A stretch of 25,987 nucleotides of DNA, taken from a virus. Numbering within the stretch: the first letter of the stretch is position 1; every line of letters starts with the position of its first letter. A program made the translations under genes and the position numbers. The notes beneath the pieces are model-generated. The model ran no database searches, was not told the origin of the DNA, and saw only the letters and a list, made by a program, of their open reading frames with translations. Below are positions 3,001 to 24,902 of this stretch, one piece after another. The stretch lies in IMG/VR virus record IMGVR_UViG_3300010883_000382, positions 1 through 25,987 of that record. One strand, written 5' to 3'.

Positions 3001-3154
3001 TAATAAACTGAGATTTATTATATTTTTTACCTAAAACTGTTCCTGTGGCGTATACTTTTACTTGTAAAGAATCAGCTACCTGTCTTATGTCTACATTCTT
3101 ACTATACCTTACAACATCGTTAGTATTTTTTATTTTATTTTCTATAGTGTCCAT
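1..3154 (-). CDS. Large virion structural protein, C-terminus cut by window edge
   Basis: An open frame starts at ATG 3154-3152 (MDTIENKIKNTNDVV) and runs without an in-frame stop to base 1, giving at least 1051 codons; I checked every line of sequence in this frame. The start overlaps the stop of the upstream 1170-residue gene as TAATG, which suggests translational coupling. I do not recognise a family. The first 400 residues are mixed alpha/beta. A cysteine cluster lies at about residues 448-491 (C448, C450, C472, C476, C488, C491; a CKC, a CxxxC and a CxxC), which could bind metal. After it the protein is Gly/Ser/Thr-rich with alternating hydrophobic residues, like phage tail beta-sandwiches. 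I see no signal peptide or membrane segment. As the last member of the baseplate block, a tail or baseplate-periphery role is likely but inferred from position only. Confidence 0.85.
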   Translation of the reverse strand, partial: MDTIENKIKNTNDVVRYSKNVDIRQVADSLQVKVYATGTVLGKKYNKSQFITMDYDVSMPVQLYEVYSGKDILEAFLYFKKENFKLGEFKVNKTPFLSDFIIRLNIENNRTLSLKQIGNKREKSLLTTKEFYVVGKESALNKFSRPKGGKTHKIEMVLPGITENKEFFKPYLNLGFDVDLRVFSTTGPVTSIFFKLNLPNPQSNLVKKYFKDKTGDVDNVILVEPRRIKTLNTAPTSYEVMDGKDLELGQFKFNYFDYFQKLNQEYTDYYIKSSEVYVVKNDENYNLNMGNFLKNSTKEIPYNVSRKLDGNTIKPSAPYFEKGLKKYPLNWVSELRNNEYFSQLNRCIELTFYCEEHLDSFDQSLKENQIANLETYTTQDGTNGKTGLKPRTYNGISEWISRTDNDYFNDLRLQYSPGGKLKSMVICPSKETKVDEYIKKNIWGGNKCKCKYSNGSDQKLTTILLNSTDGNCDEVCRKAYNTNKYEKCWTCEKTYYSPIKDLRNDFFGTTYSTIRESFSAATKYTGYTSGGITGKNTYDIYFSGNGYTATTSLMTGVAIPINNVTRLDHKPFIGVNSPSWVPYNSWQSLSSQTGTTTSLSGAGALIVQSGDPINYMIYKSLSGGTYKFQYSAYLDIKYTDTKWCEYITTNYLSGDTSSIGYPATEYELKRLINSSIIEKGLTEGNTVKKDTEGIYFPGKNGLNNNTGILDFNFEVFLEKETTSGVTNNVVSTVVGASPVTNPSANLFLLNQTNNVQNSMSGFSNCYASGTSANTVFHTQIPIKLDSGLITLISGETIVLKYNSMFQATSKVAGGVANIEMNLGHKLDLSGSATHSPFYRITKYSPSTGLTSNLKKKLFMNPQKKSSPEKYVNNKNETLEQTSKGSLYIIDDKYSPISTPIVNSQTFQSLTFVDNEKSDTTLNLNLESQVPTNNWAKQIQNNSLVDYYLPNQKDLVEIKSGILIFNLPRYDQKESTLCNYKFPQINQSYVIKNTISNVKGTQKDHFIVVTPSECLYTPCFTPTLQEKVELIDSEIKIKEKVDNVDNQIIIDG

Positions 3155-7602: not shown

Positions 7603-10600
7603 TTATTCTTGTATTAAAATATTATAATATCCATAACCGTGAAGTTCTAGTTCTCCAATTGTGGATGTTTGAGCTAATCTCTGTGGTCTTTCAAAAACTG
7701 AAACTTTACCTCTTTCAATAAATATATCTGACTGCGTTTCTGGTTTCTGCACAACATTCATCATAAACTCTTGTTTTGTTAGTCTAGGTAAACACCCCCC
7801 ACGCCCTTCTGGTGGTTCCACACAACACTCTTGATTGTGGATTGTTGGTAGACACCCTGGGAACGGATGGCAACACATATTAAAGTTTATCGCGGTTGAA
7901 TCTAAACAACCTTCTTCGTCTATAGGGGTACACCCATCTTTTTGTGACGCTCCATATATAGGGTTTGATGGTTTTCCCGAAGAAACTGTGGTTACGTTTC
8001 CTATTGGTGTTGTTGTGTCTATAACTAAACTACTCACATCCATATCAAATACCTCAGCACCATTTACAGTAGCTCCTGCAGCGTACCAACTTAATGTACC
8101 AGCATAGTCCCAAGTAAATAGCCCAAATAAGTATGGGTTTGTCGGATATGCCTGTACTTGTATTTCCCACCATGTACTCCCAATATTTGCACTGGTCCCC
8201 ATTTCTATACCAGTACCAGCTCCTAGTGAAAATTTACCTAATTTACCATTATTTGGCCAAGTATCATAATATGTAATAATTAAATCACCACTATTTTTAT
8301 CCAAAATAATATCACCAATAGCTTCTCCTTGTTGAGTTGTTGTAGCTGCTCCGGTACCAAAAGATGGCCACATCATATTTGGTAATGTGAATAGTTCAGT
8401 TGAAACCCCTATAGGCCCTGTAATATCGATATCTTGGACTGTCCATCCAGCAGATATTAAAGTGTTATTGTCTCTCGCAACTAACGCATTACCCAGATGA
8501 TAAAGTGGTTCACCCAAATCATTTACTCTGGTAGGGTTGTCAAGAGAAAGGTCGTAACCGTTTGAACATACGTCAGTAATATCTATATCTCTATTATATG
8601 TAGGGTTCTGTACTGGAGGTGGTACCATCGTCGCACCGTCACCAACCGTGAATGTTGGTAGGGTAATGGTATATTCTCTAATTATTCCTTTATTTTTACA
8701 GGGATTACTCGCATCACATATCCCTGGTGGTATATTATCACTTTCCCACTCCAAACCACTATTTGCATCTATAAAAATATCATTACCTGTTGCTGGGTTA
8801 ACAACCCTACAACTATATAACCATAGTCTGTCTACTGTGTTTGCTATATCCCAAGAACCTGTAGCGTACTTATAATTCTGTCCAAAAAGATTTTCATCAA
8901 ATTGTTCATCTCTAAATAAGAATGTCAAGTCAGATGAAGTAGTGTGTGTTGGTGGGTTGGGTGGTCCATAAAAATAAACATTGCCTTCTTTATCGTTCAT
9001 AAAGACAACACAATCCTCTAATTCAGGTGTTGCACAAATTGTATTACAATCAGCTAATGCCGCAGCACATGAAGCAGCATCAGTACATGGACCAAACATA
9101 GGTGGTCCTGACCAAACATAAGGTGGTATTACCGAAGAAAGGTATATATCTATACAACAGTCAACACCAGGACTACACCCTGGATTGTTAACTATATTAC
9201 AGTAATACCCACCTTCACATGCACACATATTAGGGTCATGTTCATTAGCATTTGGGTCATAATTACAATCAATACAATCTATTCCTGGAGTACATCCAGG
9301 TGGGAAACTACTACTGATAGAAGGACCCCCACCTGTGGTAGGACATAAATGTGTACCGTTTGGACATTGTCCTGTAGAGGTTGGGTCTACTAAGTTAATT
9401 GTACCATCTACACAACATCCGTCATCCATACACCCTACTATTATTGGGTCTTCACAATTATCTGGAATACATGGGCCCGTAGGTAATACATTTTTATCGT
9501 TAATAACGTTAAATAAACCATTACACGAGTCTCCATAGTTTGGGGATGCTGGGTCGTCACACCCTAAGTATTCACAACAAGCTACATCATCAAACCCAGA
9601 TGTGGGTGGGAAAACACAACCGTGAGCACCAGGACTATAATTAGAAGCGTCTGAATCTGGACAACCAACATAAAAACAACCATTTGTCCAACAAGTGTCT
9701 GTTGTTGCGATTAAAACCCCACCACTTGGTGGTGGGCCTGTATAGTTCCCATTACAATCATCTTGATAATTTGCAACACAACCAATAGGTCCTGGTTGAC
9801 CAGTACTTGGTATTGGGGTCGATGTATCACATATTAAAGTACCATCAAAACAACCGGGATATTCACAACAGTCTTCATTATTTGGTCCTCCGGTTACCCA
9901 ACTACCATTAGAAATTGTACCACACCCATTAATGTTTGGTGGACTCCAATTTAGAGATGAACTATTAGGACATCCGGGGTATATACAACAACCATCGTCT
10001 ATAGTTGGTATCCCTACGTATGTACCTGCACAATTATATTCGTAATTGATAGCTAGTGGGTCCGTACACCCTAAAACATTGGTTACACAACTATTACAAT
10101 TTGTTTCTACATTTGTGACTGGGTCACCACCTGTCGCTAAAAGTCTTAAATCTGTATAGTTTATTAAACCACCATTTGGTGCGTTAGAACCACCATTATT
10201 TCCATCATTAGCAAAAATACCATCTCCCCTCGTAAAAGGACTAGGACAATCAACTTGTCCACTAGTCCAAGTAGCTTCATCGTGCACTATATCTATAATC
10301 TCAACACAACCATCTATCGTTCCAGCTGGAGTCATACCCGCAACCACTAACCATTGTGCACCAGGGAACCCTGATTGGTAATTTATATTTGGGAGGGCTG
10401 AATAGTACTCACCATATGTACAATTATCTGGTTGGGGGTTAGGACAATTATTAGAACATGAGAGGATTGGGTCTGTACCTGGGGAACCGAGTGGTGTCTG
10501 TGTACAAGTTCCATTAGCAGGTGCTGAACAACCAACTGCGTGACATGGGTTAGAATTACCATTGTTAAGGGTTGGGGTGGTATAGTCCACAAATAATGAC

Positions 10601-10797
10601 CTTTCCATAGCAAAACAACCAGCCCAACCTTCAAGTGGACAACATTGTCCAGGTGTACAATTCGGGTCTTGTTGTGTACCCACAACTACTCTTCCTACAA
10701 TACCTACAGCATTTCCAATCCCATCGACGATTGTACCTATCGCGTTAGGTCCTTCACTATTAAATTGTACTGAACTCCATGGTGCTGTATTTGACAT
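7603..10797 (-). CDS. Giant cysteine-rich virion protein with GCxDxxAxNY repeats
   Basis: 1064 residues with about 67 cysteines by my count. The start is ATG 10797, preceded by 18 A/T-rich bases with no Shine-Dalgarno. Residues 20-40 form a Gly-rich, weakly hydrophobic stretch (GTIVDGIGNAVGIVGRVVVG). Residues 243-548 hold an array of diverged repeats: GCTDPLAINY (243), GCPNSSSLNW (275), GCFDGT (315), GCPDSDASNY (378), GCDDPASPNY (412), GCMDDGCC (455), GCTPGIDCID (501), GCSPGVDCC (540), and later GCLDSTAINF (963). Many units are preceded by CC-E/I-Y. Residues 640-950 are cysteine-poor and beta-rich with GDIILDKNSGDLIITYYD-like strands, perhaps a beta-propeller or lectin-like region. GCTDPxAxNY repeats are known from Bacteroidota surface proteins and some marine phage proteins. 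The likely place is the baseplate periphery or adsorption apparatus; receptor binding is inference. Confidence 0.85.
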   Translation of the reverse strand: MSNTAPWSSVQFNSEGPNAIGTIVDGIGNAVGIVGRVVVGTQQDPNCTPGQCCPLEGWAGCFAMERSLFVDYTTPTLNNGNSNPCHAVGCSAPANGTCTQTPLGSPGTDPILSCSNNCPNPQPDNCTYGEYYSALPNINYQSGFPGAQWLVVAGMTPAGTIDGCVEIIDIVHDEATWTSGQVDCPSPFTRGDGIFANDGNNGGSNAPNGGLINYTDLRLLATGGDPVTNVETNCNSCVTNVLGCTDPLAINYEYNCAGTYVGIPTIDDGCCIYPGCPNSSSLNWSPPNINGCGTISNGSWVTGGPNNEDCCEYPGCFDGTLICDTSTPIPSTGQPGPIGCVANYQDDCNGNYTGPPPSGGVLIATTDTCWTNGCFYVGCPDSDASNYSPGAHGCVFPPTSGFDDVACCEYLGCDDPASPNYGDSCNGLFNVINDKNVLPTGPCIPDNCEDPIIVGCMDDGCCVDGTINLVDPTSTGQCPNGTHLCPTTGGGPSISSSFPPGCTPGIDCIDCNYDPNANEHDPNMCACEGGYYCNIVNNPGCSPGVDCCIDIYLSSVIPPYVWSGPPMFGPCTDAASCAAALADCNTICATPELEDCVVFMNDKEGNVYFYGPPNPPTHTTSSDLTFLFRDEQFDENLFGQNYKYATGSWDIANTVDRLWLYSCRVVNPATGNDIFIDANSGLEWESDNIPPGICDASNPCKNKGIIREYTITLPTFTVGDGATMVPPPVQNPTYNRDIDITDVCSNGYDLSLDNPTRVNDLGEPLYHLGNALVARDNNTLISAGWTVQDIDITGPIGVSTELFTLPNMMWPSFGTGAATTTQQGEAIGDIILDKNSGDLIITYYDTWPNNGKLGKFSLGAGTGIEMGTSANIGSTWWEIQVQAYPTNPYLFGLFTWDYAGTLSWYAAGATVNGAEVFDMDVSSLVIDTTTPIGNVTTVSSGKPSNPIYGASQKDGCTPIDEEGCLDSTAINFNMCCHPFPGCLPTIHNQECCVEPPEGRGGCLPRLTKQEFMMNVVQKPETQSDIFIERGKVSVFERPQRLAQTSTIGELELHGYGYYNILIQE
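9154..10071 (-). repeat. Diverged GCxDxxAxNY protein repeat array in the 1064-aa gene
   Basis: This stretch encodes residues 243-548. Eight units share Gly-Cys followed by Asp/Pro/Ser-rich residues, and the better ones follow with A-x-N-Y/W. Units are 25-65 residues apart, and a CC-x-Y doublet often precedes the next GC. The units differ strongly in length and sequence, so this is a protein-level repeat and not a recent DNA duplication. An isolated unit lies at 7870-7911 in the same gene and another at 3658-3723 in the 1170-residue gene. In such repeats the acidic residues and cysteines could bind calcium or form disulfides; that is inference. Confidence 0.75.
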
Positions 10798-10815
10798 ATC
10801 TTATATTTTTATATT

Positions 10816-13800
10816 TTATATTACACAGGGTGCCCAACAGGTCCCCGAATCTAATCTTGATTTCGCTATATCTACTGGTGGTGGGACATTTTGTAGAGGT
10901 GGATTATTACAAACCATACCAACTTGGTTCATACATGGATGGTTTTGAGCTGAATTTGCGATGGGGTCTTCACATGTATCCATGTCAGTGGTATTCGGGT
11001 TACAAAGAAAGATTCCTATCCATGGAGCTGAAGTACCAATTTGCATTCCAAGCCCATCATCACAAACTGGTGAAGGGTCGTAGAAATATTTGTATTCACT
11101 ATTCTGGGTGGAACCGTTAAACTGGTATGAAATTACAGTATCATAGAACATATAAGGTGTGGTTGCAGAATAAGCTACAAATGGTGCATCTGTACTAGGA
11201 TTTGCGTCACAAGGACCACAACCCTGACCACATTGTTGACTTAGAGGTGAATTACAGGTAATTTCATCTATTTCATTACAAGCTATACCTAGCCAATTAT
11301 TTGCTGTAACCCAATCAATACCTGTTCCACCAAGTGCAGCATGATTTGGGTTTACATATGTGGTATCATTTACATCAACTTCTGTACAGTTTCCAAAATT
11401 ACCAAGTCCACCCGTCAAACATATGTGTGTACTTGGTAGTGTGCAAACGACATCACAAGCTGTAATTGGGATGGCATTAGTAGGACCACCAGTTAAAATT
11501 TCAGTACCAAAGAAACCAAGGAATTCAGAACAATGTTGCCCTGGTGAAGTATTGGTGGCGTCTTTTTGTGTACACACACCCGTATTATCATCACAGTCCC
11601 ATGATAGACAATTTTGTTCACAATCTATCTGAGTCCCAAAACCACCAGCGGTACCAGAAGGAGCATTAGGCCAATTTACACAGTATTGACCCCCAAATTG
11701 TCCAGGAGTTAAAGGAACCTGAACCCCTTCAAATGTTGCATTACACATACAGAACCATAAGTCATTATTACTTATACATGTTGTTTGACAATCCGCATAT
11801 GTCGAATATGGTATACCTGTCACAGCATTAGCTGGTACTGGGTCTCCGGCCGCGACACCTCTACAAACATTAATTAAAACATCATCACTATTTCCTAATG
11901 TACCATCAGGTCCAGATGTTATTTCTTCTGTACAATACCAATCATATACACTACCCGAACCACCACAGGTATTCTGACAACTTGTTAAGTCTGGGTAAAA
12001 ACCTCCTGACGCTGGAAAACAGGAAGATGTGTTTGATGTTGAGTTGTAAATACAATCATACTTTATACCACCACTTGTGTTGGTACAGAGTAATGCTGAA
12101 ACATCCGCTTGGCAATCCGTTAAAGCTGTTGGTCCCTGGTAAGTACATGTTCCATAGTTATATGGAATCGTAGCTCCCGGAGTAACTTGCACACAAGCAC
12201 CATCTTCACACTCATAATGCATAACCTGACCACCTGTTGGTACACATGGGTAGTTAATACAATCACTTAACGCGTTTGATGTGCTGGGTGGGCTTCCAAT
12301 AAATGTTGCAGTGTTGTAATAACTACTACTAGGTGAAATTAAGATACAAGTACCGTCTACACACATATATCTTGATGGTAATGAATCTTCTATAAAACAA
12401 GAACCGTGACACACTCTCCAAAATACTGAATTTGCGTCTAGGATGTTTGGTGGGCTATTATTTGCCAATATGTTAGTAAGGGCAAAGAAACAACAACCAT
12501 CATAGTATACATAATCTTTAGGTTCGTAATCTTCAAGAACATCCCATTCACCCCTATCATTATTCACTGGTTGTGTTATGTAACTATTACCATCAAAATA
12601 AATCTGGTCTACATTACATATGTCACATGCCCCTTGTAAAGAAAAACCACATTTTCTGGTTAAAAAATCATCAGCACTCATCCCATAACCCACAGTAGAA
12701 AAAACTGTTTCCCCATTTATATGGTCCATCATCTGAAACACTTCTGTACCATTTGTAATTGTGTAAGCTGTCATTACAGAATTAAAACTATCTATCTGTC
12801 CTGTTAGATTATCAACATAACTTCCGTCTGGCATTAGAACTTGTCCAGCAACAACAACTGTGTTTCCTTGAACATATCCCGGTGGTAAACCAGGTGTAGA
12901 TGTGGTATTATAAGACTGTAAAGCTGATATCATACTTTGAGTCACCCCATTTATCGGGTATGGTGTAGAACCGTAATTAGATGTCATATACCCATGAATG
13001 TCTAATCCAGAATCTAATGGTCCCCAATCAGAAAATTCATAATCCATACTTACCGGCGTACTAAATCCTGGTGGGATAAAAGTGTAAGTTTGCCCAGTTA
13101 AACCTCCAGCTGAAATATAATTAGACCATAGTTGTGCTCCTGTTTGAAATGGAACTGTTACCCTATGTGATACTGAACTTACACCCCATGGTGCTGACAT
13201 TCTTACATTTATTATAAATGTTCCTGGGTTAGGATACGTGGCTATAACAGTATCTAATGGTGCTGTAACTGTGGTTGGAGGCATAGCTGGGTCACCCCAG
13301 TCTATAGTATATTGTATGTTTTCTAAAAATTTAAAAAATCTAAATTCTGTACTATTTTTTAAACTAACCATATACGGGTTAGTGGTATCCCCCACAACTG
13401 TAAAGTTAGAAAAAGTATCATCTTGTTCCATTTCTCCGTCCCACATAGAATAATGACCTATATCGTTAAAATCTTGGTCTAGAAATATGGATAACATAGA
13501 ATCTTGACTATTTTTCTTTGTTCTATTACAACATTTACATAAGTTGCGTGGGTCTGTGAATATTGGGGTTATGGCTTTACTAGCTGCTTTTGATATAAAG
13601 TTAGTCTCCCACTCTTTTAAATTTTTTCTATTATTATAACATTTTGCACAGTACTCATTTTGGTCTTCCACCTCCATAGCATGTAGTTTTTCACAATCAT
13701 CTATAATTAACCCACAACAATTTGTATTGTTATCTGGACAACATGGGTTAATCATGCCAGTCCAACAGTCCAAACAAGCGTCTATGACTGTAGTTGCGTT

Positions 13801-13950
13801 TCCTAAACCACTACAAGCGTCACAATCTGATGGGTTATCTGGGGGTTTTGGTGCGTTTCTTCTAACTCCAACCAATTTTTTATCTTCACAAGGTTCCGTA
13901 TAAACTCCTGGTATATTACCAGTCCATATTTTATATCTATAAATTTCCAT
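10816..13950 (-). CDS. Giant cysteine-rich virion protein with PKD-like domain and Cys repeats
   Basis: 1044 residues; the ATG at 13950 overlaps the preceding stop as TAATG. Three regions are visible. Residues 43-141 carry a cluster of about 14 cysteines in CxxC, CC and CxCC pairs (C43/46, C59/62, C101/104, C138/140/141), possibly metal-binding. Residues 142-433 have no cysteine and include a PKD-like fold (about 185-268: YTIDWGDP, then YPNPGTFIINVRMSAPWGV), a beta-sandwich seen in many extracellular Bacteroidota proteins. Residues 434-1044 are again cysteine-rich, with seven diverged repeats at about 528-900. In total I count about 63 cysteines. No signal peptide or membrane segment is seen. 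Its position among baseplate genes makes a tail-tip, fibre or adhesin role the best guess. The order of domains is read from the sequence, the role is inferred. Confidence 0.85.
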   Translation of the reverse strand: MEIYRYKIWTGNIPGVYTEPCEDKKLVGVRRNAPKPPDNPSDCDACSGLGNATTVIDACLDCWTGMINPCCPDNNTNCCGLIIDDCEKLHAMEVEDQNEYCAKCYNNRKNLKEWETNFISKAASKAITPIFTDPRNLCKCCNRTKKNSQDSMLSIFLDQDFNDIGHYSMWDGEMEQDDTFSNFTVVGDTTNPYMVSLKNSTEFRFFKFLENIQYTIDWGDPAMPPTTVTAPLDTVIATYPNPGTFIINVRMSAPWGVSSVSHRVTVPFQTGAQLWSNYISAGGLTGQTYTFIPPGFSTPVSMDYEFSDWGPLDSGLDIHGYMTSNYGSTPYPINGVTQSMISALQSYNTTSTPGLPPGYVQGNTVVVAGQVLMPDGSYVDNLTGQIDSFNSVMTAYTITNGTEVFQMMDHINGETVFSTVGYGMSADDFLTRKCGFSLQGACDICNVDQIYFDGNSYITQPVNNDRGEWDVLEDYEPKDYVYYDGCCFFALTNILANNSPPNILDANSVFWRVCHGSCFIEDSLPSRYMCVDGTCILISPSSSYYNTATFIGSPPSTSNALSDCINYPCVPTGGQVMHYECEDGACVQVTPGATIPYNYGTCTYQGPTALTDCQADVSALLCTNTSGGIKYDCIYNSTSNTSSCFPASGGFYPDLTSCQNTCGGSGSVYDWYCTEEITSGPDGTLGNSDDVLINVCRGVAAGDPVPANAVTGIPYSTYADCQTTCISNNDLWFCMCNATFEGVQVPLTPGQFGGQYCVNWPNAPSGTAGGFGTQIDCEQNCLSWDCDDNTGVCTQKDATNTSPGQHCSEFLGFFGTEILTGGPTNAIPITACDVVCTLPSTHICLTGGLGNFGNCTEVDVNDTTYVNPNHAALGGTGIDWVTANNWLGIACNEIDEITCNSPLSQQCGQGCGPCDANPSTDAPFVAYSATTPYMFYDTVISYQFNGSTQNSEYKYFYDPSPVCDDGLGMQIGTSAPWIGIFLCNPNTTDMDTCEDPIANSAQNHPCMNQVGMVCNNPPLQNVPPPVDIAKSRLDSGTCWAPCVI
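11251..12369 (-). repeat. Seven diverged Cys-repeat units in the 1044-aa gene
   Basis: This stretch encodes residues about 528-900. Each unit begins with an aromatic or hydrophobic residue and a cysteine, then a second cysteine (YMCVDGTC, YECEDGAC, YDCIYN...C, WYCTEE...C, WFCMC, WDCDDNTGVC, HICLTG...C). Each ends with a spaced pair preceded by a small or polar stretch (SDCINYPC, TDCQADVSALLC, TSCQNTC, ADCQTTC, IDCEQNC, TACDVVC, IACNEIDEITC). Units are 33 to 58 residues, commonly 40 to 55. Four cysteines per unit would allow two disulfides or one metal site. The DNA is not repetitive, so the duplication is old or under diversifying change. Confidence 0.75.
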
Positions 13951-14879
13951 TATGGGTTTATGTATTCGTAAAATCTTACGGGAGTTAAAAAATCACCTCC
14001 CACTTTAGGGCCTAATCCGTTATTTCCATTATATAAAGCTACATCATATTCATTAAACATATATGTAAATTTAACAGGGTCAAAAGTTATCTGATAGTAG
14101 TAATACTCAGGTATACTTAAATTATATGTATTTAGTGGTTGTACTTTATTTATAAATCTATGTACTTTACCTGTTTCAGCGTTAAAAAATTTACAGGTCA
14201 TAAAAAACACATTATATTTTACTAATTCTCTATTTTTTAACCATTGTATGTAGTAGTTTTCAGTATTTCTCCCAACTGCGGAAAATTCAAATCTAGAAGA
14301 TTCTAACTTATCATAATAATATGGGGGACCAACTAACACCCCATCTTCTAAATCCTCAATTTCTGCGGCTCTATAGGTTATTGGGTCATAGTTAATTGAG
14401 GTTGGGTCGTTGGATATTTCTATTAGAGAGGAAAACATTCCTGTTTTTGAAAAACTTTTACCATTATTAGCTGGATTTACTATCGAAAAATATAACCTTT
14501 GTTTCTGAGGGTCTGCTGTATCATAAAAATCAAATTTAAAAAAACTTCTAGTAAAATTACTTTTTCTATCTACAATATCTGGGTGGGTTATACCCACCAC
14601 CGAATAATCGGGAATATAGTCTGAACTACTTCCTGTTGGTGTGGAGACTAAACTAAATCCCATATCATAAACTATATGTTTATCTACGTTATCAGTATCT
14701 GGTGAGTACCTAGTAGTTTCAAAATCTTGAACTATGTTGACACTGTCTTGCATCTCCGACCTTTCATACAATTTAATTAATTGTTCTCTTCCTAAAGATT
14801 CGTCAAAGTCATTTGCAATAGGTAGTGTTACTTTTTTATCAGTATCACTTCTTAATATTCTTACTCTATTCACAGTCAT
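13950..14879 (-). CDS. Virion structural protein, unassigned (309 aa)
   Basis: 309 residues. The ATG at 14879 lies inside the end of the 578-residue gene (14-base overlap), and the TAA overlaps the start of the 1044-residue gene. Both junctions suggest translational coupling. The N-terminus (MTVNRVRILRSDTDKKVTLP) is basic and beta-prone, then an acidic helical stretch follows (DFDESLGREQLIKLYERSEM, residues 24-43). The rest is beta-rich with many Tyr and Phe residues (YYYYQITFDP near residue 256) and a single cysteine. No known motif is recognised. By position after gp25, gp6 and two further wedge-type genes it could correspond to one of the smaller T4 baseplate proteins (gp8 to gp11), but I see no sequence support for a particular one. 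Confidence 0.8.
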   Translation of the reverse strand: MTVNRVRILRSDTDKKVTLPIANDFDESLGREQLIKLYERSEMQDSVNIVQDFETTRYSPDTDNVDKHIVYDMGFSLVSTPTGSSSDYIPDYSVVGITHPDIVDRKSNFTRSFFKFDFYDTADPQKQRLYFSIVNPANNGKSFSKTGMFSSLIEISNDPTSINYDPITYRAAEIEDLEDGVLVGPPYYYDKLESSRFEFSAVGRNTENYYIQWLKNRELVKYNVFFMTCKFFNAETGKVHRFINKVQPLNTYNLSIPEYYYYQITFDPVKFTYMFNEYDVALYNGNNGLGPKVGGDFLTPVRFYEYINP

Positions 14880-16602
14880 CTGCTGGTAAACTTATATAAG
14901 GGGGTGTTAGATAATCTTTATCGATTATTATTGGTTTAATTTTAAATATCAAGTTGGTGTAGGGGTAGTGTGCTCCATTTACAAAAGCATAGTCAACACC
15001 ATGAGTTTTGGTTTCATAAAACCCTATAGGCAACATGGGCCTCCACCTAAATTGATTTTCGAACATAGAATATGTTGCATATTGCGGTACAAATTCAAAA
15101 TTTTCGTTTACGGATGGGGCTTCAGATAATTTTCTTATAGGTATTCTGTGGTGTGGTTGATAATAGAACCCACCTTTTATTTCATCAAAACTATCACCAT
15201 ATAATCCTGGGTCGTAAAAAGAAAACCCATCCGTCATAACATCATTGTAAGTTAATTTATGGTGCACTTCCGATATAATTCTTTCTGTTAAATCCCATTC
15301 ATTATACTCGACAAAAGCCCCAAGGAAAGTATCACCACTTTGTGGTAAATTCCAAGGTGTTGTAAGATTGTCTTCTCTTTTGTTATTGGGATATGGGTCT
15401 GGAATGCCTGTTGGGATGAAATTCCAATCCCAACCTACCCCAACACAACTACCAAACGTGGTTTTCCAAATTTTAGTTTCGTTAACAGCAAAAACACTTA
15501 AGTACAAATTTAGAAGTGGTCTACCTAAATTATCCGAATAGTCACTAACATCTAAATCATTGGTGAAATTCCATAAGTAGGATTTATACTCATCTTTAAT
15601 TACTTTATGTGTAACACCTAACATTGGTGCGTCTTCACCTATAAAAGTTTTCTCTCTTTTAGAGTAAATACCTAGTTCAAAAGAGGTTTTATCTAGTACG
15701 TGGTCTGTTGGTTTGGTTAGTATAGTGTGTACATGCACATAATAACTAGATAATGTCTCATTAATATTGTCTGGATTTATTAATCTTTTAAAGACACCAA
15801 AATCATTATCAACAAGTGTTAGGTCTGTATCACGTAATAATACTGTAAAAACTTTAGATTCACTATCTAAAGTCTCATCCCCTAAAGAAAAAATTGGTGA
15901 CGTTACTTCATTATTTATAGTAGTTACAAGACCAACAGCTCCAATCGTATTTATGTTTGGGTTGGATTGTAACTGAATATATTCTCCTTCATTTAATCCG
16001 TGTTCCATAGGACATACGAACTTAATAGCCGCCTTACCTTGTACCACCACATTTTCAATATAGAATGGTATTCCATCTCCGGACGTAAAAGAAACACCAT
16101 TATAACTATACACCCCGTTGTTATCTTTTTCACCTATACTATATTCCATAGGTTGGTCAATTTTTGTATCTTTAACATACGATTCGTAAATTATCCAATT
16201 ATCTTTTTTTGCTTTTAGTTCTTGGAAGTTGTGAGCTGAAGTTAACCCAGTGGAGGTTATAAAATTAAAGAATTCATTAGAGGGATACCCACAAGCAACA
16301 GCAGATTCAGCTATCACAATTGGGTCATAATATAAATGATTAGATACAAATTGTGAGTCGTAACTACACCCAGAAATTGAATTGTCTGTTAGTACGTTTA
16401 TTTTCCCATATAATCTATAAGTGTAACTTTCTTCTCTTTCTCGACCGTATTGGTCTGCTAAGTTTAAAACTAAGTTTCTTTCACCTTCGATTAACGCTCT
16501 ATTAGTTGCCTCTAGGGTATACGGTAACATTATATCCTTATCTTGAGCTCCTATATATTTTTGTGAACCTCTAACTATATGTAAACCTTCTGGATATCTC
16601 AT
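14866..16602 (-). CDS. Baseplate/tail structural protein, unassigned (578 aa)
   Basis: 578 residues; the ATG at 16602 overlaps the stop of the 1178-residue gene as TAATG. The N-terminus is MRYPEGLHIVRGSQKYIG. The protein is mostly beta-strand and loop, rich in Tyr, Asn and Asp, without membrane segments or a cysteine cluster. The C-terminal 80 residues contain FRWRPMLPIGFYETKTHGVD and a following NGAHYPYTN, a conserved-looking aromatic block. Gene order (gp25, gp6, large protein, this one) matches the T4-like order 25, 6, 7, 8, so a gp8-like wedge role is a positional guess; marine T4-like gp8 proteins are often longer than the 334 residues of T4. The sequence alone does not show homology to gp8. 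Confidence 0.8.
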   Translation of the reverse strand: MRYPEGLHIVRGSQKYIGAQDKDIMLPYTLEATNRALIEGERNLVLNLADQYGREREESYTYRLYGKINVLTDNSISGCSYDSQFVSNHLYYDPIVIAESAVACGYPSNEFFNFITSTGLTSAHNFQELKAKKDNWIIYESYVKDTKIDQPMEYSIGEKDNNGVYSYNGVSFTSGDGIPFYIENVVVQGKAAIKFVCPMEHGLNEGEYIQLQSNPNINTIGAVGLVTTINNEVTSPIFSLGDETLDSESKVFTVLLRDTDLTLVDNDFGVFKRLINPDNINETLSSYYVHVHTILTKPTDHVLDKTSFELGIYSKREKTFIGEDAPMLGVTHKVIKDEYKSYLWNFTNDLDVSDYSDNLGRPLLNLYLSVFAVNETKIWKTTFGSCVGVGWDWNFIPTGIPDPYPNNKREDNLTTPWNLPQSGDTFLGAFVEYNEWDLTERIISEVHHKLTYNDVMTDGFSFYDPGLYGDSFDEIKGGFYYQPHHRIPIRKLSEAPSVNENFEFVPQYATYSMFENQFRWRPMLPIGFYETKTHGVDYAFVNGAHYPYTNLIFKIKPIIIDKDYLTPPYISLPADDCE

Positions 16603-19600
16603 TATACTATTACGTAATCATCACCTATCTCATCTTTAGTCGCTGGTACATATTTCTTTAGAAAAGTATCATACGAAGTAGCTCCAGGTATTAAACCAAA
16701 ATAATAATGAAACCCACTACCTAGTGATAGTCTGCCTTCTGTTTGATTTGGTGATATTGGTGTTGTGGTTGGTATTGCGGTACCATTATTCATTGTCCAA
16801 CTATAAATATTTTGTATATCACCTACAATCATATCTGTTTCTTCTGTTTCCCAATCTCCCCAAACATATTGGTCATTCCCATATCCTGCACCGTTTTTTC
16901 CCCATGGGAAGAATGGTACGACCTGTGATGTGTTATTATTAACTTCCACCAAACATTCTCTAAGATGTTCAGCTGACGGATTAACCGAATCACCACTTAA
17001 ATACGCAACTGTTAATTGCACACTATCGTCACTACCACCACCAGGTACACTAGTTGAACGTGATAACCATAGATTTAACCCTTGTGGGTCCCAACCAGAA
17101 GGCCATAAAGAGTTTGTGGGCATTATTGTAGGTATGGAGGTATCGTTAGGCCAATCAGTATCCCACATTGTAGGTGGACTTCCACCTGGATTAGTTCCAC
17201 CACCTGCTGGAGCATAATCCCAACTTAAATTTTGTGCTGTATACTGTGTTGCTGGATTACAATCTGGTGGGCTACATTGTGACGCAAAATATTGCACTTC
17301 TTTAGTTTGTGGTGTGTCATATTCTTCTGCCCCTAATTCGTTCATTTGTGAAATTATAGAAGCCATCCCACCACCTAATTCTCTTCTCCTACCTGGTACT
17401 AACCAACCGTCACCATTTCTTCTAAAGGGGGTTCTTAGAGTTATCCTTTCAAACAACCCAGTATTATAGTTAACTATCTCATTAATCGCGTCAAACATAA
17501 AATCACCAGCAGCATCAAATGTTGTAGCTCCAATATAAGGTCCAATAGAACAACTTTCTGCCATCCCACCAGTCTCACTACATATTTCTCCTATATTTGT
17601 TTTTACAGGTCCTAAATCTAATATTGTAGTAGGCCAATGTAAATTTTTAATATTTGCTCCCGCTGCCTTATCGGCTGAAATAGCATTTAAAAATATACCA
17701 ATAGGCCCACCTAATAACGCAGATATTAATAAAGGTCTTCTAGCGTCATATGTTGGTCCACCTACAAAATTACCAAGACCTGTGTTTAAATCGTATTGGT
17801 AAGGGGTACACCTATAATAGTATTCTTGGTCTTTTGCATGAAAAAATACAACTTCCTCACAGTGTTTAGACCTATAATGTTCACCATCTGAACTTCCTAT
17901 TATTTTAGCTCTGAATTGGAAGGAGTATAGAAACCCTCCAACCCAATTATTAGACCAAAAATAATTCATTAACCCATCACACATAGACCTAAATAAATTT
18001 TCTCTTTTTCTCCAATCTGCAATCATTGCTATTTTTGATGGGTCGTTTGGGTCTGATTTTATCATAGATACTATAGCGGTAAGTATGTTATCCCAAGAAA
18101 TACTATAACATCCCTGGTCTAACCCTTTATCACTTTTTGTGGGTGAATTACACGGTATATAATCTTGGTCTTTGACTTGTCCAAATAAATTTGGTTCGTC
18201 ATCAGCACCGTGTAGACCACCTTGACATTCATTACTAGCACTACCATTCATAGCGTCAGAAAAACAACCACACTTATCACATTCCGGATATTTTGTTATT
18301 CTTAGAAATAAACAACCGAATAGAGAATTACAATCTAATGTTTCAGTTGATTTATTACAAATACAGTCAGGACAAGTACATTTCCTCTTCTTTTTCTTTC
18401 TATTAAAGACATACCATAATTTACAAGCTAAACAGGATAACCAAATGATGAATTTTTTGATTAAACCTACAATCCACATAATAAAATCAACTATAGTACA
18501 AACAAAAATCATAAGATAATACAAGAAGGTATATACCCCTTGTAAGAATCTTGTTACAAACTGATTAATTATTATCTGGAAATTTACATTTTTATTTGCC
18601 GTGTTCATAGGGAATGGCATTGCTTGACCTGCACACGCATCTTCTTCCCTTGGTTGTATTTCTTTTATCCCTATAAACGCATCTTTTGCTCTGTGCTTCC
18701 AATGATTATGGAATGATGCGAGAGTGTAAACTTTAGAATATGAAAACTCATAAAAAACATCATTACATGTTAATATATCCCCATTATCCACAGACGCTTC
18801 CGCATAATCATAATAATCTACAGAAAAGGAATATGACCTTGGGTCTGGCATTGTGGATTGTTGTTGTGTACCTAACCCTAATTGACTCCAAGGCCAATCA
18901 CTTTCAAAATCTATGTTTTCTAAGGTGTGTTCTTTTATTTGGGGTACTAAGAATGCTCCTCTTCTTCTTTGTCTAGCTGTCCCTGCTGTTTCTAAAGGTT
19001 TAACCCTAAATCTGTATTTACCTTTGGTTGGTATCCCTACTCCTGGTTTTTTAGAAATTACTTGTTCACCAAACTCATTTGTTATTACATAATCTAGATT
19101 CATTGGTACATTAATTAAAAATGCCCCATTATCATCCATTGAGTATCCACCATTGATATCGAACCTCTCTAAAACTGGTACTAATTCTGTTTGGTTTGGA
19201 TTATTTGTATATCCCGAAGGTCTAGTGTCTGGTTTAAAATATGGGGTAAACCTTATAGATTCTATTTTACCTTGTGAGGGTGAAAGGTCACATAACTGAC
19301 CCATTTTTCTTTTAGGTTTACAATTCTTATTAACAGAATATTTATCAGTGTCTGTAGCCATAGAACCCATAAAAACAGATGTAGGTTTAATCTCCACACT
19401 TCCCGAATCTCTCAAATCAAAATCCGCTCTAGTAATAGTAGCACCACATCCAGAATCTTTATCACCCCATAAAGGTTTTACATCTATTGATTTTGATAGC
19501 ATTACTATCTGAGGTAATGAGTCTAGGTTTGAATTTGTTTTAAATGCTGCACCATCGAAAGACCCTTCTGGTTCTCCCTGTAGTTTAAAATCTTCTGGTA

Positions 19601-20138
19601 CCATAGAAAAACACCCAATATCAGATAAATCTACATTCATTTGTAGACTTTGTTCTCCTAGTGGTACCCCATAAATCATAAAGTCACCACTATCGTTAGT
19701 TTTTGCGGTATACTTATAATATTTGTCATAAACATATGAAACTTCTTGATTAAGAAGTGCATTGTCTAGTGTTGGGAAACTACCTGTAGATTGGTGACCT
19801 TTGTAGTTAGGTACACTAGATAAAAGATTGTATCTATACCCCTCCTCATTTCTAAAATTTGGTGTTTTGTAGGGGTATATAGAACTTATTACTGGGTGTT
19901 CTTCATCATCACTATCTAAAGGTATAAAAATAGAAACTTTAGCGTTTGGTAGCCCAAACCCCCCATTAACGAGTACTCTACCACATACAACACCAAATCT
20001 TGCACAATCTTTAGGGTACACATCTGTTTGGTGTAATTTTAGACTTAAAATCTCTAGTAGGTCAAACTCTTGATTTAAATCTAAAGTGACTTCCTTATCC
20101 ACACCGACCTCAGTTCTAATTCTTAAACTTTTTACCAT
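16602..20138 (-). CDS. Large baseplate protein with CarboxypepD_reg-like domain and membrane hairpin
   Basis: 1178 residues, ATG start after a 72-base leader. Residues 48-170 look like a carboxypeptidase-regulatory-like (transthyretin-type) domain: GRVLVNGGFGLPNAKVSIFI (53-72), then TNDSGDFMIYGVPLGEQSLQ (147-166), separated by an insertion of about 70 residues. A second similar strand set with DINGGYSMDDNGAFLINVP occurs at 327-345. Residues 531-578 are strongly hydrophobic and fit two membrane helices (YTFLYYLMIFVCTIVDFIMW, then a KK turn and FIIWLSCLACKLWYVF). They are followed by RKKKKRK and a cysteine cluster (CTCPDCIC and later CDKCGC, 587-625). The last 230 residues are Trp/Pro/Gly-rich. 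It lies directly after gp6, where T4 has gp7 (1032 residues), but no gp7 similarity is evident. A membrane hairpin is odd for a tail protein and hints at contact with the host membrane during injection (inference). Confidence 0.88.
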   Translation of the reverse strand: MVKSLRIRTEVGVDKEVTLDLNQEFDLLEILSLKLHQTDVYPKDCARFGVVCGRVLVNGGFGLPNAKVSIFIPLDSDDEEHPVISSIYPYKTPNFRNEEGYRYNLLSSVPNYKGHQSTGSFPTLDNALLNQEVSYVYDKYYKYTAKTNDSGDFMIYGVPLGEQSLQMNVDLSDIGCFSMVPEDFKLQGEPEGSFDGAAFKTNSNLDSLPQIVMLSKSIDVKPLWGDKDSGCGATITRADFDLRDSGSVEIKPTSVFMGSMATDTDKYSVNKNCKPKRKMGQLCDLSPSQGKIESIRFTPYFKPDTRPSGYTNNPNQTELVPVLERFDINGGYSMDDNGAFLINVPMNLDYVITNEFGEQVISKKPGVGIPTKGKYRFRVKPLETAGTARQRRRGAFLVPQIKEHTLENIDFESDWPWSQLGLGTQQQSTMPDPRSYSFSVDYYDYAEASVDNGDILTCNDVFYEFSYSKVYTLASFHNHWKHRAKDAFIGIKEIQPREEDACAGQAMPFPMNTANKNVNFQIIINQFVTRFLQGVYTFLYYLMIFVCTIVDFIMWIVGLIKKFIIWLSCLACKLWYVFNRKKKKRKCTCPDCICNKSTETLDCNSLFGCLFLRITKYPECDKCGCFSDAMNGSASNECQGGLHGADDEPNLFGQVKDQDYIPCNSPTKSDKGLDQGCYSISWDNILTAIVSMIKSDPNDPSKIAMIADWRKRENLFRSMCDGLMNYFWSNNWVGGFLYSFQFRAKIIGSSDGEHYRSKHCEEVVFFHAKDQEYYYRCTPYQYDLNTGLGNFVGGPTYDARRPLLISALLGGPIGIFLNAISADKAAGANIKNLHWPTTILDLGPVKTNIGEICSETGGMAESCSIGPYIGATTFDAAGDFMFDAINEIVNYNTGLFERITLRTPFRRNGDGWLVPGRRRELGGGMASIISQMNELGAEEYDTPQTKEVQYFASQCSPPDCNPATQYTAQNLSWDYAPAGGGTNPGGSPPTMWDTDWPNDTSIPTIMPTNSLWPSGWDPQGLNLWLSRSTSVPGGGSDDSVQLTVAYLSGDSVNPSAEHLRECLVEVNNNTSQVVPFFPWGKNGAGYGNDQYVWGDWETEETDMIVGDIQNIYSWTMNNGTAIPTTTPISPNQTEGRLSLGSGFHYYFGLIPGATSYDTFLKKYVPATKDEIGDDYVIV

Positions 20139-20210: not shown

Positions 20211-22064
20211 TTATGAGAAGTTGGGCCTGTTAATTTGTTTAACCCTAACACGTATGTCTATATCGGGATATTTTATTTGTGGCATTTCATCCGGTAAGAA
20301 GAAAAGTGTTTGGTCTATAGTGGCTATCTGGTAAGTGGAATTAATTGTAGACCCTGAAACTATGGGTTGTGTAGTTATGGAATTTGAGTATGTGGCACCA
20401 ACCTCATTATACACCCTAACATCTATAACGTTTAACACCCCTGGTTGGCGTGACACATCACTATAAAAACTACTAAGACTTATAGTTTCACCCATTTCAT
20501 GAGAATCAATATCGAAGAATTTTTTTACAGTTTCTATCACATTGGAAACAACTTGGCCTTGATTAGCCTCTGTTGTGATAACAATATCTAACTCCACACT
20601 TATGTCTATAACCTTAGCTGATGAAATTTCTATATAATCATTTAACATCCTATAATTAGAAAGATATTCAGCTACATTATTTTTTAATGTGGAACTAACA
20701 TTAGATGTTAATGTACCATTAGGGGAGTACGATAATAAACCAATTTTAACTTTATTTTCTATTTCTGTAACACCAACTTTTGCCGCGGCTCCAAATTGTG
20801 CGGGCATAGTTCTTATCCTTGCTACATAATCGTTTATCGTGACAGCTCTGTTCTGTGCCGCAAAATTAAAAGTAACGTAATTTCTAACTTCTTCCGTTGA
20901 CATTTGGTCGTCCCCACCTAAAGCAGATGTTACATTAGTAACCTGTAGACTGTTTGAGACACTACTGTTTATTAATGATACTGGTCCACCTACCACAAAA
21001 TCTATAACACCTAATGAATTTATTGCCCCAGCACCTAAATTAGAAGCTTTACCACCCCCAACTCTATATTGTATAAATAAAGTGGTGTTAGGTCTAGGTA
21101 CAGTACCTAAAGATACATTATTTATAAACTTATTTAAATTTATATTAACCCCATGCTTGGAGAATTCATCTAATAATTTTTGTGAGTTATTATTACCACT
21201 ACCAAATGTTAGAAAAAAGAATCCTTCTGGTGTGAATTCTGTTACAAATTTATCATCTGTCCTTATATATTTCCCTACTTTCATACCAGGGTCATCAGCT
21301 GGTGTAGATTGGTCTATTTCAAAAACTTCTGATTCGGCTAAAGCCTGCATTTCGTACCACTTATTTTCTCTCGCGGTTATAAATTCTAAAGAAGATGGTA
21401 AATTTGTATACCCTAAACCCTCTTTTTGCATTACAGCTGTCACACCTAACACATTTCTTTCAGGTAAAAATAACTTAAAAAACGGTTTGCTGTCCATATC
21501 TGTTATTTCTTTTTTAAATATTTTTGTCACCCCATTCACAACAACTTCTCTCTTAGTAATTGTATAATTTTGTATTACACCGTTAGAGTTACGGTTAGGA
21601 ATTTTTGTTCTGTTTACAGCCCCTTCTACATTATATTGTGTTGAGAAGTCGCAGTCATTCATTAATTCAAACACTTGTCCACCACCCCTTACTTGTGCTC
21701 CTCTCCTTAAAAACCCTAAATACCTACTATCCTCTTTATCCCCTCTTGCTGGTACTACTATTGAGAAGTCACAAAGTGTTAATGATGGTCTATTTCCCGG
21801 TATTTTAAGTCCGTAGGTTCTAGCTATATTAAAAATAGAACTTCTTTCTTGTGCATAATCTAAAACTGTTTCCTGTAAAGTTCTATCTATATTAAAATGT
21901 AGGTTATCTGTAACGGCAGCATTTAAATCTAAAAATACCGAAAATATAGATGCGTCGTTGGAATTTTTAATTAAGTCAGGATAGTAGATATTTGTTAATC
22001 TAAGTAATTCATTTCTTAGTCCTAAGAAATCTCTTTCAGTGTAAGCTATTTTTTTCTCTGCCAT
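20211..22064 (-). CDS. gp6: Baseplate wedge protein, gp6 / baseplate J family
   Basis: 617 residues, ATG start two bases after the stop of the gp25-like gene. The N-terminus (YTERDFLGLRNELLRLTN, residues 8-25, then YYPDL) resembles the start of T4 gp6. The baseplate-J hallmarks are present: a Gly-rich turn VGGGKASNLGAGAIN (335-349), then GGDDQMSTEEVRNYV (383-397) and NRAVTINDYVARIRTMP (405-421), matching the 'E-E-x-R ... NRAVT-x-x-DY-x-x-x-I ... P' pattern. The size is close to T4 gp6 (660 residues). In T4 and P2, gp6/gpJ dimers form the ring of the inner baseplate and bind gp25/gpW and gp7/gpI. The adjacent gp25-like gene supports the call. No oddities are seen. Confidence in family is high from motif, size and synteny. 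Confidence 0.92.
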   Translation of the reverse strand: MAEKKIAYTERDFLGLRNELLRLTNIYYPDLIKNSNDASIFSVFLDLNAAVTDNLHFNIDRTLQETVLDYAQERSSIFNIARTYGLKIPGNRPSLTLCDFSIVVPARGDKEDSRYLGFLRRGAQVRGGGQVFELMNDCDFSTQYNVEGAVNRTKIPNRNSNGVIQNYTITKREVVVNGVTKIFKKEITDMDSKPFFKLFLPERNVLGVTAVMQKEGLGYTNLPSSLEFITARENKWYEMQALAESEVFEIDQSTPADDPGMKVGKYIRTDDKFVTEFTPEGFFFLTFGSGNNNSQKLLDEFSKHGVNINLNKFINNVSLGTVPRPNTTLFIQYRVGGGKASNLGAGAINSLGVIDFVVGGPVSLINSSVSNSLQVTNVTSALGGDDQMSTEEVRNYVTFNFAAQNRAVTINDYVARIRTMPAQFGAAAKVGVTEIENKVKIGLLSYSPNGTLTSNVSSTLKNNVAEYLSNYRMLNDYIEISSAKVIDISVELDIVITTEANQGQVVSNVIETVKKFFDIDSHEMGETISLSSFYSDVSRQPGVLNVIDVRVYNEVGATYSNSITTQPIVSGSTINSTYQIATIDQTLFFLPDEMPQIKYPDIDIRVRVKQINRPNFS

Positions 22065-22065
22065 A

Positions 22066-22572
22066 TTATAAATTTATAATTATAAAGTCTCTAGTACCAA
22101 AAACATCATCTTTTATACTATAATCTATAAAAATTTTAGTAGTGTATTCTTCAGCACCATCACCAGCTACCCTATAAATTCTATCGTCTAAATTATTATC
22201 TAAAGTACTATCATTAGAAGCTAAAGAAGGGTGGTTGACTGACCCGTTACTCCTTTCTTCTTCTCTCGCATCTTCTAAATCTTGTATTTTTATTTCGTTT
22301 ACTATAATATTAGGTATGTATTTTTTTATCACATCTCTTAATTCTGAGTCTATAGCTTGAAACGTTTGACTATCCATAGGTTCAAAAATATATTCATACA
22401 ATCTTGTTCCGAAGTCGGGTAAAAAATACCTTGACCCTTTCCTAGTTAATATTAAATGAATTAAATCGGTTTTAGTTTCTTCAGCGACAGTTGTTGTTGT
22501 TTTTAAAAACAGTCCACTGTCACTATTTTGGAACGGAAACGCGATACCATATCTTTCTCTAGCTATTGTCAT
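22066..22572 (-). CDS. gp25: Baseplate wedge protein, gp25 / GPW family
   Basis: 168 residues, slightly longer than T4 gp25 (132). The family signature is clear: GIAFPFQNSDSG (residues 9-20), the helix TKTDLIHLILTRKGSR (34-49) and then YFLPDFGTRLYEYIFEP (50-66), matching the usual 'I-x-x-L-L-T-x-x-G-x-R-x-x-x-P-x-F-G' motif of lysozyme-like gp25/GPW proteins. The catalytic role is lost in this family; the protein is the structural core that ties sheath to baseplate. A non-family acidic, Ser-rich insertion (about 105-130) and a C-terminal strand follow. The start ATG at 22572 is preceded by AAGTATTTATTTAAT, with no Shine-Dalgarno. The gp6-like gene follows after one base, the expected order. 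Confidence 0.95.
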   Translation of the reverse strand: MTIARERYGIAFPFQNSDSGLFLKTTTTVAEETKTDLIHLILTRKGSRYFLPDFGTRLYEYIFEPMDSQTFQAIDSELRDVIKKYIPNIIVNEIKIQDLEDAREEERSNGSVNHPSLASNDSTLDNNLDDRIYRVAGDGAEEYTTKIFIDYSIKDDVFGTRDFIIINL

Positions 22573-22806: not shown

Positions 22807-22999
22807 TACTATTATAAATATCAACCCCTTCTAATTCTTCTTTATATTCACAAAAAGGACAAGTTATTGAATTAGGTACCGTTTCTTCTTTTTTTGGTGT
22901 TTTATTAGAAAATAAATGGTAATCAGCAACTGACCACCATTTTTTACATTTACCACAGTTAAAGTGGTATAAAATTTCCTTACTAAATTTGTGTTTCAA
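22790..22999 (-). CDS. Zinc-ribbon mini-protein, TTG start
   Basis: 69 residues with two CxxC pairs, CGKC (C15/C18) and CPFC (C47/C50), spaced as in a rubredoxin-like zinc ribbon; an aromatic block KKWWSVADYHLF lies after the first pair. It probably binds one zinc ion; the partner is unknown. There is no ATG in the frame before the first CxxC, and an in-frame TAG lies just upstream (23008-23006), so translation must begin at TTG 22999 or another non-ATG codon. That TTG lies within the last codons of the ribonucleotide reductase gene (17-base overlap), so coupled translation is plausible. Small zinc ribbons of this kind are common in phage genomes; a regulatory or nucleic-acid role is only a guess. 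Confidence 0.72.
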   Translation of the reverse strand: MKHKFSKEILYHFNCGKCKKWWSVADYHLFSNKTPKKEETVPNSITCPFCEYKEELEGVDIYNSNETSN

Positions 23000-24902
23000 T
23001 TGTTTCTATTTCTTTAGTGTCCACACTTAACGATTTTAAATCCACATCAATTTCACAACTACCCCCAGAACAAGCTAATTCCCCAGATAAATCAGTATTA
23101 TCGTCCAATTCTATAACTTTAGTTAAATCAATGTCTGTTAATAGTTTCATCAACACATCATATCGTTCCCTTGTAATGTCCTCGAAGGGAGCTTGAATGT
23201 ACGAACCTCCATCATACGGTAACACAGATAGTCCATTGTAGTAATTTCTATTTTCCCACATCCATTCACCAGCCGTATCCCATTCATCTTCTTTCAAACT
23301 TATTGTTGCAGACACGTTGTGACTGTTAGACCCTTTTCTATGTCCAGAACGTACCCATTCTGTAGCAACCTTCTTAACTCTTTCTAATAGGTCAAAAGGT
23401 GATTCGGTCCTTAGTATTGAACCTTCAGGTGCTTTTTGTGGTATACTAATCACAGCTGTATCATGAGGTCTAAAGTAATCGTCCTCTAGTAATTCTGGGT
23501 GGTTAATATTTAGATAAACATAAATTGACTCATTTTTACCAACCCTAACCCTTCTAACATAATAATCATTATGCCAAGCATGTATTCCAGATGATGTACC
23601 TAACGTTAATGATGTTGTTCCAGCTGGTTTAACTGTTGTTGTTCTAGCTGCTTGGTTAATACCTAATAATTTAGAAACTCTAGTATTTTCTCTTTTAACT
23701 AAACTAGCAGCTTTTTTCATATCATAATCAAAAACTTTACCAGAACCAATCCCCGTCATTGACACCCCAATTAAAGCGTCTTTCTCTGTGGTCTCTTGCC
23801 AAACTTCTCTTAAATAATGAAATGCTGTATATCCAGCTTGGAGTGTACCTATAAAAGCTGCAACTTTTACCCGTTCATTTAAGTCTTCTTGTGATTCGAT
23901 ATTTGAAACGTTAACTTCACACAGATTACAGAACTGATATGGCCTTAACGCAATTTCACAACATGGGTTAGTTCCCCAATCTTTATCGTTGTTTAAATAT
24001 ATACCAGGTTCACCAGCACCGGATAACTCAACTCGTTTCCAAAGGTCCATGAAAAATTCTTTAGTAATTTTATGTCTCATTAAACAAGCTGAGTTGTTTG
24101 CTCTACCTCTTTGTGGGTTTAATTCCCACCAGTTACCTGATTTGCAAGATATCATAGAATCGTCATCAGCACTAAATAGACTAATTAAAGCTGCTCTTCT
24201 AATACCACCAGCTAATACAGCATCAGCTATATAGCAGATAATATCATGTACCTCTAATGTAGTTAATTGTTCACCATTTTCTTTTTCTAATAATATACCT
24301 TCTATCTTAAGTAAACATTCTTTAAGTGGTTGTGGTCCTGGTGCTTTACCTCCTGATGTCACTAATCTAGCTCCTTTAGCTCTAATGTCTGTGAAATCAA
24401 ATTCTACTCTAGACCCACCACCATTCATATAGGATTTCATTAAAACTTTAATTGCGTCAGCCCAACCTTCAATTGAATCACCAATTAAAAATCTTCGTTT
24501 TCTTTTTGGGTATGGCTTACTTATTACGGGTAATTTTTCTACATGGTGTTTTTGTACTGAGTACCCAACACCGGTTCCTCCTAATAATAAGAACATTGTT
24601 TCACTAAACGAATCTATATGGTCTAATGGTAGGTACGCACAATTATAAATCCTATTTGGTGATATTTCGATTGGTTTTCCTCCAAATTGCATTGACCTCA
24701 TTGATGGTAACACCTTCTTATCGTGAACTAGTTTGTATTTTTCTTGTATTTCACTCTCTAGTTCTGGGTATTTTTTTATATGCATGGCTTTGTTTCTCAT
24801 AACTAATTCATCCCAAGTTTCTCTTCTTTCTAACTCCGGTGTGTATTTTGCATATTTCATATGAACAGTTATGTCCGATAAAATTTTGTTTGAAATTTCC
24901 AT
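22983..24902 (-). CDS. nrdJ: Adenosylcobalamin-dependent (class II) ribonucleoside-triphosphate reductase
   Basis: 639 residues, ATG start 15 A/T-rich bases after the helicase stop. It reduces ribonucleotides to deoxyribonucleotides with an AdoCbl-generated thiyl radical. The active-site residues align by spacing with Lactobacillus leichmannii RTPR: C88 (C119), N312, thiyl C314 and E316 in NPCCEI (N406, C408, E410), C325 in FCNLCEV (C419), and the C-terminal redox pair C611/C616 in CSGGSCEI (C731/C736). VKPAGTTSLTLGTSSGIHAW (425-443) is the typical phosphate-binding region. It is about 100 residues shorter than the Lactobacillus enzyme, mostly between C88 and C314 and at the N-terminus, the region that holds the effector-binding insertion there. 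No ATP-cone or intein is seen. Reductant (thioredoxin or glutaredoxin) must come from elsewhere. The host or phage must supply cobalamin. Confidence 0.95.
   Translation of the reverse strand: MEISNKILSDITVHMKYAKYTPELERRETWDELVMRNKAMHIKKYPELESEIQEKYKLVHDKKVLPSMRSMQFGGKPIEISPNRIYNCAYLPLDHIDSFSETMFLLLGGTGVGYSVQKHHVEKLPVISKPYPKRKRRFLIGDSIEGWADAIKVLMKSYMNGGGSRVEFDFTDIRAKGARLVTSGGKAPGPQPLKECLLKIEGILLEKENGEQLTTLEVHDIICYIADAVLAGGIRRAALISLFSADDDSMISCKSGNWWELNPQRGRANNSACLMRHKITKEFFMDLWKRVELSGAGEPGIYLNNDKDWGTNPCCEIALRPYQFCNLCEVNVSNIESQEDLNERVKVAAFIGTLQAGYTAFHYLREVWQETTEKDALIGVSMTGIGSGKVFDYDMKKAASLVKRENTRVSKLLGINQAARTTTVKPAGTTSLTLGTSSGIHAWHNDYYVRRVRVGKNESIYVYLNINHPELLEDDYFRPHDTAVISIPQKAPEGSILRTESPFDLLERVKKVATEWVRSGHRKGSNSHNVSATISLKEDEWDTAGEWMWENRNYYNGLSVLPYDGGSYIQAPFEDITRERYDVLMKLLTDIDLTKVIELDDNTDLSGELACSGGSCEIDVDLKSLSVDTKEIETIETQI

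Follow-up and report, generated by a model that had tools for sequence, protein, structure and literature searches.

How contractile phages bring their DNA across the inner membrane, once the outer one has been pierced by the tail tube, is not yet well understood. The DNA analyzed here, a 25,987-base IMG/VR virus record (the whole of which we call the window), raises this question at the baseplate. A protein of 1178 residues, P0001, which is encoded beside wedge genes, carries an extremely hydrophobic segment. Does this segment enter the host envelope during DNA delivery, does it hold the baseplate together as a buried core, or does it tie nascent baseplates to the membrane of the producing cell? 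The genes concerned are:

22066..22572, minus strand: gp25-like wedge protein (PF04965, PHROG 261)
20211..22064, minus strand: gp6/Baseplate_J-like wedge protein, the upstream neighbour of P0001 (PHROG 219, PF04865)
16602..20138, minus strand: open reading frame of P0001, which carries the hydrophobic helix and founds an undescribed family
14866..16602, minus strand: 578-aa protein, second of a conserved trio with P0001 (position conserved)
13950..14879, minus strand: 309-aa protein, third of this trio (position conserved)

The gene order is gp25, gp6, P0001, a protein of ~570 aa, one of ~300 aa, a variable part, a protein of ~305 aa and finally one of ~1000 aa or longer. It is common to both main clades of mapped contigs, in which the P0001 relatives measure ~1150 aa and ~1700 aa, respectively. 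The gp6/Baseplate_J-like gene is present in 10 of the 12 related records and adjoins P0001 wherever it was mapped. In the related contigs, the sheath, tube and hub proteins encoded upstream match T4-type families, indicating that the tails are contractile. P0001 is best explained as a baseplate-region structural protein of a T4-like, contractile tail, probably present in the virion, and the baseplate setting proposed in a preliminary description of this DNA is borne out by the operon position next to the gp25- and gp6-like genes.

The surrounding genomes show further features of their own. The tail sheath proteins (L071 6422-9856 and its equivalents) reach ~1070-1370 aa, as compared to 659 aa for T4 gp18. 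Positions 7603-13950 of the window encode two Cys-rich proteins, of 1064 and 1044 aa, in which repeats such as GCTDPxAxNY occur, and proteins of 2454 and 2991 aa occupy the position of this pair in related contigs. A ribonucleotide-reductase-like protein (22983-24902) is 67.6% identical to one of Microcystis phage Mel-JY01, the gp6 of which is likewise among the nearest cultured relatives. Flavobacterium phage immuto is also a cultured relative by gp6. Together with Bacteroidota-like lipoprotein signals in related contigs, a cultured gp6 relative makes marine or freshwater Bacteroidota the likely hosts.

P0001 itself matched nothing in Pfam, PHROG, the PDB sequences or INPHARED, and the proteins encoded after it in the window were likewise without a known-family match. 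Its predicted organization is as follows:

18699..20138, minus strand: residues 1-480, beta-rich, CarboxypepD_reg/Ig-like, the best conserved part (AlphaFold2 pLDDT mostly 80-97)
18405..18581, minus strand: residues 520-578, modelled as one unbroken helix, extremely hydrophobic except for a narrow stripe of polar/small residues
18381..18401, minus strand: residues 580-586, RKKKKRK, a lineage-specific polybasic tail
18264..18287, minus strand: residues 618-625, a P-x-C-x-x-C-x-C motif after the helix, near-invariant in the alignment columns
17604..18113, minus strand: residues 676-845, a beta-rich C-terminal domain (AlphaFold2)

A weak CarboxypepD_reg domain was detected by Pfam in the N-terminal part of 20 of 36 P0001 relatives, and a Foldseek search against PDB folds returned weak Ig/pilin-like matches with low TM-scores. 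Among viral structures, Foldseek yielded one relative, A0A8S5LA66, an uncharacterised protein of the metagenome-assembled phage Myoviridae sp. ctPuP5, which aligned across 810 columns at 25% identity (E 1.4e-37).

T4 gp7, which binds gp10 and initiates the wedge, is a solved baseplate component, and resembles P0001 in being large, in being encoded right after gp6 and in having one hydrophobic stretch. It differs in the length of that stretch, ~20 residues (one 19-aa stretch with a mean hydropathy of 2.07), and in that P0001 gave no PHROG, Pfam or PDB-sequence match to wedge or gp7 families. P0001 directly follows gp6, and the 310-aa and 1170-aa proteins encoded further on are, on positional grounds, the better gp8 and gp7 candidates. 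The 1170-aa protein at the gp7 position (3154-6666) shares the conserved motif YLFKSKGTRKSIEFL with its relatives, and is itself without a Pfam, PHROG or PDB sequence match. Since P0001 has no profile match to this ORF, which adjoins the gene at the gp8 position, we consider its identity with gp7 unlikely. The preliminary description had contrasted P0001 with soluble T4 wedge proteins; this contrast needs a caveat, as an integral membrane domain is predicted for the C-terminus of gp7 in the T4 record.

The hydrophobic stretch of P0001 is real. The mean Kyte-Doolittle hydropathy of residues 531-578 (48 aa) is 1.65, above the maximum (1.59) of 5000 shuffles of P0001, the mean of which is 0.75. 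No protein in the window has a more hydrophobic stretch: the 19-aa maximum is 2.58, as compared to 1.64 for the next protein. The segment as described at first, 18381-18548 on the minus strand (residues 531-586), lacks 11 residues at its N-terminal side, as the hydrophobic helix begins at about residue 520. While its strong hydrophobicity stands, it is slightly more charged than "broken by one KK pair" would imply, as residues 531-578 contain four charges (D551, K561, K562 and K573). The polybasic RKKKKRK is present as described, but is not a family feature: at least five K/R in eight residues occur at this flank in 10 of 250 relatives, so that anchoring by positive charge does not hold in general.

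P0001 has at least 600 relatives in IMG/VR (585-600 or more confirmed in individual scans). By contrast, 50,697 phage records contained no relative, even with distant members used as queries. The sole match in the genome scan was a P0001 relative in a Prochlorococcus single-cell assembly, which does not by itself prove the host; the contig, QCKH01000004.1, carries the whole module and is probably a captured phage. In this contig a strongly hydrophobic, membrane-type ORF of 137 aa lies between gp6 and the P0001 relative (L168 10879-11292; also L067).

The presence of the segment in homologues, on which the preliminary description depended, was confirmed: of the 263 relatives that are 620 aa or longer, 257 contain, within the region 400-720, a 19-residue stretch whose hydropathy averages 2.0 or higher, which points to a selected feature. 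L011 (1.89) and L129 (1.82) are borderline, and the segment is clearly missing in four short, distant relatives only (L063-L066, 711-786 aa). The longest uncharged run in the segment has a median of 39 residues across the family. In a comparison of the window with its close relative L002, identity is 50% for the segment and 83% for the N-terminal half. The segment thus drifts faster than the N-terminal part yet stays hydrophobic, suggesting that selection keeps the hydrophobicity rather than the letters. The helix-less L063-L066 are collinear with residues 1 to ~500 of P0001 (27% identity, hhalign 5e-118) and keep the other two trio genes: their 482-aa protein is related to the 578-aa protein of the window (hhalign 88.9%), and their 261-aa protein to the 309-aa protein (96.1%). 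Within one family, the helix has thus been either added or lost.

The strict PxCxxCxC motif is absent from L063-L066, and a looser form occurs in 239 of 254 proteins; the motif, which directly follows the helix, may be a metal site or form disulfides. A C-terminal domain shared with the helix-less relatives, seen by eye (NNWVNG/KNQWMN), was not supported by profile comparison, and an N-terminal docking motif common to P0001 and the 309-aa protein was marginal (25%).

The preliminary description read the segment as a two-helix transmembrane hairpin. Two AlphaFold2 runs were made, and in the one that used 91 natural relatives (mean pLDDT 80.8, pTM 0.70) residues 520-578 were modelled as one unbroken 59-residue helix, mostly at pLDDT 85-95. 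The linkers flanking it on both sides have weaker confidence and are probably flexible. Sequence periodicity agrees with the model. The column-averaged hydrophobicity over 520-572 peaks at 100 degrees per residue (0.84, reached by none of 5000 permutations), and the helical phase stays within 197-227 degrees, unbroken through column 551, the central position where a turn would be expected. The second half of the segment continues the polar pattern of the first in phase, and none of 20,000 column permutations was as periodic and in phase. The polar/small stripe runs along positions 526, 530, 533, 544, 551, 555, 558 and 562, the commonest residues being S/N/Q526, T/Q/D/R530, Q/T533 and His544 (192/256).

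Mean-field coevolution on the segment, computed from 256 sequences (174 effective), is strongest at separations 3, 4 and 7, the helix periodicity, and gave no antiparallel (antidiagonal) signal, including at 551. The power of this test is limited, since it detected one of five other P0001 windows used as controls, namely a strand hairpin predicted around residue 313 (p = 0.003, Neff 61). Two antiparallel hydrophobic helices, as an integral membrane hairpin would have, were thus not found. We conclude that, at least outside the membrane, the segment is most probably one long helix bearing a narrow polar stripe rather than a hairpin, as the model and the periodicity both suggest.

Could the other proteins of these tails supply a membrane-inserting element? 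A tape measure is mostly helical, scales in length with the tail and is encoded after the tube and hub genes, whereas P0001 has a beta-rich N-terminus and is encoded after gp6. In eight P0001-bearing contigs, proteins of 598-729 aa, assigned by position and composition, are the candidate tape measures. They are encoded after the tube and hub genes and have a helix-forming composition with few aromatics, while family profiles gave no match naming them. Their hydropathy maxima are 1.04-1.27, as compared to 2.20 for T4 gp29 and 2.24 for the annotated tape measure of immuto, which has four segments above 2.0. The sheath, hub-region and spike/peptidase proteins of these contigs do not exceed 1.57, apart from one value of 1.88. 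Given that the tape-measure candidates lack a hydrophobic segment, the P0001 helix is the strongest candidate for membrane insertion in these tails, and by this hydropathy survey the only strong, conserved one within the mapped tail modules. In one helix-less contractile phage, a 418-aa protein with hydrophobic segments (2.27) lies beside the gp6-like gene (L063 contig 27058-28314; L162 7058-8314). In this single case, it may be a functional substitute for the helix.

A membrane role of the segment is plausible, and the reading that we favour, with a probability of roughly 0.4, is that the baseplate-borne helix enters the host envelope as the DNA is delivered. We infer a course of events in which P0001, present in the virion as an oligomer, would hold its hydrophobic helix of 53-59 residues by flexible linkers. 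As long as the virion is free, the helix would be stored, probably packed with the copies from neighbouring subunits. A shape change of the baseplate at the host surface would release the helices, which would then enter the host membrane and pack via the polar/small stripe, thereby anchoring the tail or lining a channel for the DNA. The in-phase, narrow stripe would suit helices that pack, or line a passage, inside lipid. A simple single crossing fits poorly, as a straight 59-residue helix measures ~88 A, more than twice the hydrophobic core of a bilayer.

The P0001 helix would thus do the job attributed to tape-measure hydrophobic segments in phages such as T5, where a 46-residue hydrophobic stretch of the tape measure pb2 was proposed to form the outer-membrane channel (PMC10038345). 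T5 pb2, however, is a siphophage tape measure stored in the tube, whereas P0001 is encoded in the baseplate operon, is Ig-like and beta-rich, and stands apart from the tape-measure candidate. Among the papers covered by our literature search, none described a myophage baseplate protein with a membrane-inserting segment.

Another possibility, which we regard as tentative, is that the helix never meets a membrane and packs with neighbouring subunits or other proteins, holding the baseplate together as a buried core. The single continuous helix predicted in place of a membrane hairpin, together with its one in-phase stripe, would be expected of such a core. T4 gp7 provides the precedent of a hydrophobic segment in a non-membrane wedge protein, and in L011 and L080 the second half of the segment is charged (9-12 charges in 59) and more like an amphipathic helix; this precedent and these variants also count against envelope insertion. 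However, hydropathy in most members averages close to 2 or higher across more than 50 residues, and the hydrophobic face covers most of the helix, far beyond what is normal for soluble helices.

We consider it rather unlikely that the segment serves assembly, by holding baseplates under construction at the inner membrane of the cell that makes the phage. This role is that of Cis13, which ties thylakoid contractile systems to their membrane through a transmembrane helix on a tail component (PMC8894136). Cis13 resembles P0001, as predicted here, in being a peripheral component of a contractile tail with a transmembrane helix; it is, however, fibre-like and keeps the machine in its own cell by means of a helix at the C-terminus, while the helix of P0001 is internal, much longer and belongs to a phage. 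Column 516, which is 90% charged (K or R), and the polybasic C-flank of the window's close relatives would be in line with such an anchor. On the other hand, few relatives have positive charge at the C-flank, we saw no element for release from the membrane, and virions that leave the cell would still need to shield a long hydrophobic helix.

The hairpin, a claim on shape that overlaps these functional readings, is improbable given the continuous model, the phase preserved through 551 and the missing antidiagonal signal. In its favour, the segment is long enough for two short crossings, P/N/G/D/S make up 62% (weighted) of column 551, and some freshwater-type members have W-N-N-F-A-V-P at 551 along with further hydrophobic segments; such a fold might also arise only on insertion into a membrane.

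To conclude, the mapped tail module has a single strong and conserved membrane-like element, which is carried by a protein of the baseplate operon, and the family is widespread. If the helix does insert in the host envelope, it is possible, though far from assured, that a large group of T4-like phages, so far without cultured members, no longer penetrates the membrane by means of the tape measure, and that a ring of baseplate proteins has taken over this task with unusually long helices, which would be stored in the baseplate and then deployed into the host envelope. P0001 turns a vague question about entry into a short list of testable residues, and it provides a marker gene for an abundant group of aquatic phages that has no cultured member in the phage collection searched.
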